The translations under genes and the position numbers were made by a program. Below the pieces are notes generated by a model. The model saw only the letters and a list, made by a program, of their open reading frames with translations, had not been told where the DNA came from and made no database searches. From Natrinema sp. DC36 (GTDB lineage: Archaea > Halobacteriota > Halobacteria > Halobacteriales > Natrialbaceae), in assembly GCF_020405225.1 (NCBI RefSeq), contig NZ_CP084472.1, positions 3,472,001 to 3,536,000 of the forward strand: 64,000 nt of DNA. The letters run 5' to 3'. Of the stretch, positions 21,111-50,195 are shown piece after piece (the stretch's first letter is position 1; each line of letters begins with the position of its first letter).

Positions 21111-21185
21111 GGGCACGTAGCTCAGTCCGGAAAGAGCGTCGGACTTCTAATCCGACGGTCGTGGGTTCAAATCCCATCGTGCCCG
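21111..21185 (+). tRNA. tRNA-Arg, anticodon TCT
   Basis: A 75-base cloverleaf. The acceptor stem GGGCACG pairs with CGTGCCC (21178-21184), the anticodon stem TCGGA/TCCGA closes a loop CTTCTAA with anticodon TCT, and the T-arm is GTGGG-TTCAAAT-CCCAT. The discriminator is G at 21185. No intron and no encoded CCA. The last 21 bases are repeated 159 bases downstream. Confidence 0.95.
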
Positions 21186-21193
21186 TGATTCTG

Positions 21194-21345
21194 CGACGGT
21201 TCCGCGAACCAGTGAGCGGAACGTCGTGAAACGTAGTTTCACGGAAACGGACGCGAGGAGCGAATCACAGACAGAGATGGGATTTGAACTAGACGGCGGC
21301 GAGCGGAGCGAGCCGACGGCGTAGTTCATAATCCCATCGTGCCCG
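21194..21345. repeat. Composite structured element after tRNA-Arg, with duplicated tRNA 3' end
   Basis: In order: a hairpin at 21194-21226 (CGACGGTTCCGC with GCGGAACGTCG), a perfect hairpin at 21225-21243 (CGTGAAAC-GTA-GTTTCACG), an inverted copy of the T-arm at 21276-21290, a GC-rich palindromic linker (GGCGAGCGGAGCGAGCC), and a direct copy of the tRNA 3' end at 21324-21345 that differs from the tRNA by one inserted T. The direct copy resembles an attachment-site duplication left by an integrative element. The same plan is seen after tRNA-Pro. Confidence 0.6.
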
Positions 21346-48696: not shown

Positions 48697-48951
48697 TCAC
48701 GGAACGAAGGCGACACCAAATAGCGAGAGCGCGAGCACGAGCAACGAGCCCGGAACGCCACCGATCGCGACGATTGCAACCGTCAGTGGCGTCACCGCCA
48801 CTCCGACACCGAAGACGACCTGGGCGAGGTACAACACCACGAGTCCACCCACCGCGTTGACGATGAAGGGTCTCGCGACCTCGATGAGCTGTGCCGCCAC
48901 GAGGACGAGTACCAACACGAGAATCAGAAGCAGTATCTCGAGTCCGGTCAT
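48697..48951 (-). CDS. BofA-like small membrane protein
   Basis: Membrane protein of 84 residues, start MTGLEILLLILVLVLVLVAAQL. Two to three hydrophobic segments, and a pattern (ARPFIVNAVGGLVVLYLAQVVFGVGVAVTPLTVAIVAIGGVPGSLL) seen in haloarchaeal proteins named after the sporulation protein BofA. Archaea do not sporulate, so the name describes only similarity. The frame is open upstream through the tRNA-Pro, but the start at 48951 is right. Confidence 0.7.
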   Translation of the reverse strand: MTGLEILLLILVLVLVLVAAQLIEVARPFIVNAVGGLVVLYLAQVVFGVGVAVTPLTVAIVAIGGVPGSLLVLALSLFGVAFVP

Positions 48952-49034
48952 GGCTGGCGCTATCACGGCACCGGGCAAAACCGTTCGGACCGTAACGAAA
49001 CGCTTTATGACGTGGGCGCGGTTTGCATAGATAC

Positions 49035-49107
49035 GGGATCGTGGGTTAGCTTGGTATACTTCGGGCCTTGGGTGCCCGTGACCCCGGTTCAAATCCGGGC
49101 GATCCCA
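49035..49107 (+). tRNA. tRNA-Pro, anticodon TGG
   Basis: A 73-base cloverleaf. The acceptor stem GGGATCG pairs with CGATCCC (49100-49106), the anticodon stem CGGGC/GCCCG closes the loop CTTGGGT with anticodon TGG, and the T-arm is CCCGG-TTCAAAT-CCGGG. The discriminator is A at 49107. No intron and no encoded CCA. Confidence 0.94.
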
Positions 49108-49111
49108 TATT

Positions 49112-49236
49112 GCTGCCGCGAACAAACTCGTGAGCGGCAGCCATTGGAAAGAGCACGGATTTGAACCTCGGAAGTCGCAGCGCTCGAGCGAAGCGAGAGC
49201 GACCGTCTTCCGTTAGTACAAATCCGGTCGGTCCTA
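49112..49236. repeat. Composite structured element after tRNA-Pro
   Basis: Same plan as after tRNA-Arg: a hairpin GCTGCCGC (49112-49119) with GCGGCAGC (49134-49141) that shares the CCGCGAAC...GTGAGCGG wording, an inverted copy of the T-arm in GGATTTGAACCTCGGAAG (49157-49174), a GC-rich linker (GCTCGAGCGAAGCGAGAGC), and a degraded direct copy of the tRNA 3' end at 49216-49236 that matches 17 of 21 positions. The outer parts of the last two make the inverted pair GGATTTGAAC / CAAATCC. Confidence 0.55.
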
Positions 49237-50021: not shown

Positions 50022-50195
50022 TCAGGGAGACGAGGTTGGCTGCTCGAGCCGAGTGAACGAGCCGTCACCGCAGACGCAGTCTTCGCTCGTGCCCAGCGGG
50101 CGGATCGAGCCCGTCGGCGAGATCGCGCCGACGAGGATCGCGTCACAGTTCTCACAGCGGACCGCGGCTCGCGTTTGAGTGGATTGCATTGCCAT
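50022..50195 (-). CDS. Zinc-ribbon microprotein (57 residues)
   Basis: Short frame starting MAMQSTQTRAAVRCENCDAIL and ending FTRLEQPTSSP. Four cysteines in two pairs (CENC, CVC) look like a zinc ribbon. The composition is protein-like and the plus-strand frame over it is arginine-rich. It resembles the microprotein at 35112 in size and cysteine layout but not in sequence. Function unknown. Confidence 0.6.
   Translation of the reverse strand: MAMQSTQTRAAVRCENCDAILVGAISPTGSIRPLGTSEDCVCGDGSFTRLEQPTSSP

Follow-up and report, generated by a model that had tools for sequence, protein, structure and literature searches.

The window analyzed here, a 64,000-nt stretch (G000:C1:3472001-3536000) on a 4.1-Mb haloarchaeal contig, contains two tRNA genes according to ARAGORN and Rfam, tRNA-Arg(TCT) at 21111-21185 and tRNA-Pro(TGG) at 49035-49107, both on the plus strand. 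These two tRNAs are the only Rfam matches above gathering score within the window, and neither of the units described below is matched. The tRNA-Pro gene ends in segment X (T54-N73, TTCAAATCCGGGCGATCCCA, 49088-49107, +), which is duplicated downstream. Directly behind it lies an inserted segment, or unit, of 129 nt (49108-49236, +), supported by comparison with a congener and by a covariance model (CM) match (E = 3.4e-24; the Pro unit is itself among the 16 units from which the model was built). The unit opens with a hairpin, H1, that carries tandem G.A mismatches (CCGC-GA-AC..GT-GA-GCGG; 49112-49141, +) and reads GCTGCCGC-GA-AC-AAACTC-GT-GA-GCGGCAGC. This is followed by an inverted copy of the tRNA T-arm (XR, CGGATTTGAAC, 49156-49166, +), a linker hairpin, L (CTCGGAAGTCGCAGCGCTCGAGCGAAGCGAGAGCGACCGTCTTCCGTTAG, about 49167-49216, +), which contains GAGCGAAGCGAG and is of a type common to the Leu(TAG) units of several genomes, and a degraded direct copy of T54-N73 that is identical at 16 of 20 positions (TACAAATCCGGTCGGTCCTA, 49217-49236, +). 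A sequence-only reading had given this order for 49107-49236, and hairpin, inverted T-arm, linker and degraded direct copy are all present as it described.

Both copies behind tRNA-Pro exceed chance: the inverted-copy match was equalled by none of 200 shuffles and the direct-copy match by 0.5%. Together they form the two arms of a single long imperfect hairpin, and the unit (127 nt folded) reaches -57 kcal/mol, with a z-score of -4.9 against dinucleotide shuffles; two other units gave RNA-fold z-scores of -10.2 and -6.2. An open reading frame (ORF) on the minus strand (48697-49125) runs antisense through tRNA-Pro and reaches into H1; its start would fall within the unit, and annotators could take this frame for the beginning of the neighboring membrane-protein gene. 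Another strict G.A-tandem hairpin occurs on the plus strand at window position 50104, outside the units and with no tRNA nearby.

The second unit of the window (160 nt; 21186-21345, +) lies behind tRNA-Arg(TCT), in which X spans 21166-21185, and follows the same plan as the Pro unit, with H1, inverted T-arm copy, GC-rich L and direct copy in that order. Its H1 (TTCCGC-GA-AC..GT-GA-GCGGAA; 21200-21221, +) is followed by an additional hairpin at 21225-21243, the inverted copy (GATGGGATTTGAAC, 21276-21289, +) matches tRNA-Arg over 14 nt, the linker hairpin (21290-21324, +) has the apex GGCGAGCGGAGCGAGCC, and the direct copy of T54-N73 (21325-21345, +) contains one inserted base.

Across the 44 tRNA genes of this genome, an inverted copy (score ≥10) was found within 250 nt downstream of 20 and upstream of 1, a direct copy downstream of 25 versus upstream of 2, and both copies downstream of 18. 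The CM yielded 26 matches in the same genome, of which 23 lie directly behind a same-strand tRNA, a count that includes second units of arrays and a tRNA-Trp-like 3' end missed by ARAGORN; the other three are an intergenic L-type hairpin, a copy 1.2 kb behind tRNA-Gly and an antisense echo. A free-standing L-type hairpin (GGAAGTCGCAGC...GAACGTCTTCC) is located in an intergenic region (L078, G000:C1:2151000-2152000) whose 1 kb of sequence yielded no tRNA call, indicating that L-like hairpins can exist without arms.

The same CM identified units in 143 of 145 Halobacteria in an even sample of the class. In a sample of the phylum, units were present in 23 of 24 Halobacteria and in none of 125 other Halobacteriota. 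All 15 genomes searched from the genus Haloferax (g38) carry them. CM matches were absent from two Halobacteria genomes, G031 and G140, the former having congeners with 8-16 matches, and both are useful natural negatives when seeking a mobilizing factor. We also scanned named GTDB genomes with a DNA pattern (L then GTTC): 52 of 60 haloarchaeal matches, including those in Halorubrum, Haloarcula, Haloferax, Natronococcus, Halovivax and Halorhabdus, are found no more than 400 nt behind a tRNA on the same strand; of 23 chance matches in other organisms, 0 were close to a tRNA. The recurring post-tRNA architecture proposed from the two tRNA genes of the window thus extends to both copies behind 18 of 44 tRNA genes here and to nearly every sampled member of the class; about 40% of this genome's tRNA genes carry a unit, and relatives show a structured pattern in place of random variation.

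Units are about 95-160 nt long and consist of H1, the inverted T-arm copy, L and a 20-nt direct copy of X, the tRNA segment that begins at T54 and ends with the discriminator. Payloads (median 103 nt; 10-90% range, 93-133 nt) begin T-rich or with H1 and finish in L, and no ORF of the kind found in integron cassettes was seen in them. Their sole inverted pair is internal and derived from the T-arm, and no terminal inverted repeats, a feature of miniature inverted-repeat transposable elements (MITEs) and classical transposons, were found in them. In 112 of 167 units, the direct copy and the tRNA agree at 20 of 20 positions. As a rule, the inverted copy spans only T54 to about position 63/64 (T-loop and part of the T-stem) and fits the host tRNA clearly better than other tRNAs at positions 63, 62, 60 and 57. 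A full-length inverted copy as a general rule, which would make a closed dumbbell of X, was rejected because past position 64 the match is at chance level in most units.

Each insertion places some 95-160 bp immediately after the discriminator; because T54-N73 is duplicated in the process, the tRNA stays intact. The 3' end of the tRNA is repeated directly at both borders of the unit, and empty sites occur in relatives. At the Pro locus, the 129-nt unit of the window is absent from the congener G008 (L059), where the same downstream flank (..ATAAGG.TTACGCAACCCTTATACACCAGTTTT) abuts the tRNA, and a 114-nt unit is present in G004 and missing from G007, with an alignment score of 55 over a 60-base flank. 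Filled and empty pairs with non-unit flanks were also found at Gly(TCC) (G159/G023, G162/G023, G009/G000, G154/G157 and G003/G157) and a filled/empty pair at Ala(GGC) (G046/G156); at Leu(TAA), L040 of this genome and L083 of G004 form a presence/absence pair. Behind Arg(CCG), G101 carries an extra unit before one that it has in common with G062, and the flanks differ at 1 of 60 bases. Deletion between direct copies yields an identical empty site, so filled/empty pairs alone give no direction, and since flank polymorphism can also come from homologous replacement, individual gains remain putative. Units also stack: of 195 tRNA contexts, partly picked because they had matches, 117 hold one or more complete units, 37 two or more and 10 three or more. 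In G148 (L131, C1:2111400-2113200), an ordinary unit behind tRNA-Phe is joined to one that contains part of the tRNA-Phe anticodon/variable region, and this two-unit composite recurs in tandem with a 272-bp period.

tRNA-Gly(TCC) is in addition a hotspot for larger islands (G006:C1:187724/209639, G023:C1:885540/891633, G129:C2:383690/398905 and G157:C1:455279/452957), some of them with integrase-like ORFs (left ends of two different kinds) and with the 3' half of the tRNA directly repeated; units occur there next to the tRNA and also beyond the island. Such islands raise the question of whether the units are footprints of ordinary tRNA-integrating islands, that is, att remnants of integrase-encoding elements that have come and gone. 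We consider this quite improbable, as the island repeats start in the anticodon region and measure about 45-48 nt, those of units start in the T-loop and measure about 20-22 nt, and the tRNA-side island ends in G006, G010 and G023 lack H1 and L. Remnants would also keep neither a covarying two-hairpin fold nor give clean tandem arrays behind many different tRNAs. Integrase-like ORFs were seen in the separate, larger islands only, and the units are too short to encode an integrase. G009, G154 and G159 have a unit interposed between the tRNA and its flank; in G006/G010 or G023 this flank borders on the tRNA itself, with an integrase-like ORF after it. This layout is most simply explained by insertion of the unit after integration of the island; island integration at the distal copy of X is a possible alternative.

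The fold itself appears to have been kept. In 109 units, all 25 modeled base pairs have changed on both sides, and 94.8% of cells are paired, compared with 77.1% after shuffling and 32-50% after sliding, figures from an alignment that was fitted to the model and leans towards it. The motif GA-RC-loop-GY-GA was found 309 times on the tRNA sense strand versus 15 times on the opposite strand, an asymmetry implying that what was kept is a folded single strand, either RNA or single-stranded DNA. The strand-specific G.A hairpins, the strong covariation and the presence of units across the class would all suit a structured RNA with a cellular role (a tRNA trailer, a small RNA (sRNA) or a processing or decoy element) that spread by duplication and gene conversion. 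Either the tRNA T-arm or the decoy copy could be the pairing partner of the inverted arm in such an RNA; in a predicted co-transcript of the window's Pro locus, the partner is the tRNA's own T-arm. A lead in this direction comes from Haloferax mediterranei, in which several RNA-seq-verified sRNAs of 78-147 nt are intergenic and adjoin tRNA genes (PMC5852579). Yet more than half of the tRNA genes have no unit, orthologous tRNAs gain or lose one between congeners, G031 lacks units altogether while its congeners have them, and the copies decay freely, which together make a cellular role of this kind unlikely. The sequence-only reading had also suggested a structured trailer that functions in processing; because units are dispensable, occur in tandem and are present or absent between congeners, a required tRNA-processing element is likewise unlikely.

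The average similarity of H1 and of L is somewhat higher when one tRNA is compared across genera than when different tRNAs are compared, which points to much inheritance per tRNA. Genome-wide homogenization of H1 and L was rejected, as the average similarity between different tRNAs of the same genome equals that between different genera. Even so, transfer of L from one tRNA to another is clear. The Ile and Phe units of G131 have a 52-nt L in common at 98% identity and quite different H1 hairpins, and the Leu(TAG) and Val(TAC) units of G089 have a common L at 94%, with each inverted arm fitting its own tRNA. A single L type (ATCAGGGAG.GGGAGGTGAGCGAGCG.AGCGAGCGAACGGGA.CGA...G) occurs behind Lys(TTT) and Arg(CCG) in G101, Leu(TAA) and Arg(GCG) in G062, and Lys in G081, a member of another genus. 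It is always flanked by arms of the host tRNA, whose T-loops include TTCAATT, TTCAAAT and TTCGAAT. A common L with host-fitting arms indicates that the arms were taken from the target or corrected to it. The earlier suggestion of a mechanism that copies tRNA 3' ends is supported as a description, because one L lies behind four tRNAs (Lys, Arg(CCG), Leu and Arg(GCG)) with arms fitting each; the route may be synthesis at insertion, later hairpin correction or conversion of a pre-existing unit.

Arms that always match the host tRNA, even where L is common to different tRNAs, could also be born in replication. In this scenario, DNA polymerase would switch templates at the hairpin-rich tRNA 3' end, making first an inverted and then a direct T-arm copy and capturing H1 and L from other units, with no dedicated enzyme. 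It gains some plausibility from the Arg(CCG) unit of G101 that is absent in its congener G062, in which a near full-length inverted copy (local score 14) spans most of X, as opposed to the T-arm part only in most units, and from the frequency of long inverted copies overall (local score ≥13; 14 of 167 units versus 3 of 835 controls). Against it, the duplicate has the same limits every time, T54 and the discriminator, and such precision is what one expects of site-specific recombination. In addition, H1 and L would not stay conserved across the class under free template switching, and copies upstream of tRNAs are nearly absent (1 inverted and 2 direct for 44 tRNAs). On balance we regard replication-born copies as improbable, to about the same degree as a structured RNA with a cellular role.

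The explanation we favor, though with a little less than even confidence, is that the units are non-autonomous, gene-less insertion elements at the tRNA 3' end that are mobilized in trans, most likely by a tyrosine recombinase. A site-specific recombinase acting in trans would move the units, and a tyrosine recombinase with its crossover in the T-loop would be the most likely type; the T-loop is a classic att position in tRNA genes. The unit would be presented as a folded single strand, corresponding to the tRNA sense strand, on which the inverted arm and the direct copy may form a double-stranded recombination site, by analogy with integron cassettes and attC. A circle handled by a tyrosine recombinase does not by itself account for host-specific arms, which would be kept complementary to the target either because the target serves as template when the unit is inserted or because the hairpin is corrected afterwards (quasi-palindrome correction). 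Recombination between direct copies would cause loss of the unit and restore the empty site, and units would accrete behind tRNAs while acquiring target-derived arms. What the data show directly is inserted DNA, duplicated X, stacking, the fold and its strand bias; the enzyme, the single-stranded form and the way in which arms arise belong to the proposal. A bolder form of this proposal is possible but less probable: a class-wide mobile hairpin element that moves as the folded sense strand, acquires with every insertion newly written inverted and direct copies of the tRNA it targets, reuses hairpin modules and stacks in the manner of integron cassettes. We separately considered the units as attP sites of viruses or plasmids and rejected this candidate: no copy was found in phage records with two unit queries, a viral-contig scan for one L type gave chance matches only, and one match lies on an 828-kb Natronorubrum replicon that bears tRNA genes.

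Several known systems resemble the units in part. Like integron cassettes, they are small and stand in tandem behind a fixed receptor site, and as with attC a long imperfect hairpin ends the unit, its arms flank a G/TT-type junction and one strand folds better than the other. In tandem units the hairpin arms meet at ..GAAC/GTTC.., a resemblance to attC by description and not by attC-model score. Unlike integrons, the receptor is a tRNA T-arm, the arms are target-specific, and the 95-160-nt units show no ORF. Archaeal integrons have been reported in metagenome-assembled genomes of nine phyla, in a text that leaves Halobacteria and haloarchaea unmentioned (PMC9668308). Archaeal elements that target tRNAs (SSV, pNOB8, SNJ2 and other tyrosine-integrase families) likewise enter at the tRNA 3' end and restore the gene through a direct repeat, but they encode an integrase, are far larger and lack an internal inverted copy of their target. 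In SNJ2-type elements the repeat is very short (13 bp) and lies at the extreme 3' end (PMC8371274).

REP/BIME palindromes and IS605-type PATEs or MITEs are, like the units, short, non-coding, palindromic, repeated and mobilized, or presumed to be mobilized, in trans, and PATEs have been described in Haloquadratum (PMC3119063). The units differ from all of these by the lack of terminal inverted repeats, by tRNA 3'-end targeting with target duplication and by target-derived arms, and they are bound to tRNAs (23 of 26 CM matches in this genome and 52 of 60 matches in named genomes), unlike the dispersed intergenic REP/RAYT elements. In CRISPR arrays and casposon integration, a palindromic target is duplicated per insertion beside a fixed leader, and known casposons use tRNA 3' ends; the likeness lies in target duplication and the difference in the payload, which is a conserved two-hairpin structure and not a spacer. 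Methanopyrus kandleri has a palindrome 10 bp downstream of half of its tRNA genes (PMC5217627), which also stands behind many archaeal tRNA genes but is single, short, unrelated in sequence and free of T-arm copies. Haloarchaea have a further peculiarity of tRNA biology, being the only archaea, among those examined, in which whole circular tRNAs were reported (PMC12558985).

We found no description of the units in the open-access papers searched, and a prior one is possible in subscription papers, which lay outside the search. As integron cassettes, tRNA-integrating elements, MITEs/PATEs and REPs each fail, or may fail, on a defining feature, we place the units outside known kinds; a recombinase, once found, could make them a new branch of site-specific integrative elements. 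Their features suggest a class of very small insertion elements, devoid of genes and so far undescribed, that adopt the sequence of their target. On a conservative reading, as structured repeats accreting by site-specific recombination, they provide a new recombination marker at tRNA genes and call for caution when annotating islands, att sites and sRNAs. If the fuller interpretation is true, an abundant and unrecognized element family would reside at the tRNA genes of almost every haloarchaeon, model organisms included, and would reveal a process of movement or copying in which the sequence of the target is taken over. Much of the sequence behind haloarchaeal tRNAs would then be accounted for, and perhaps also some of the small RNAs reported adjacent to tRNAs.
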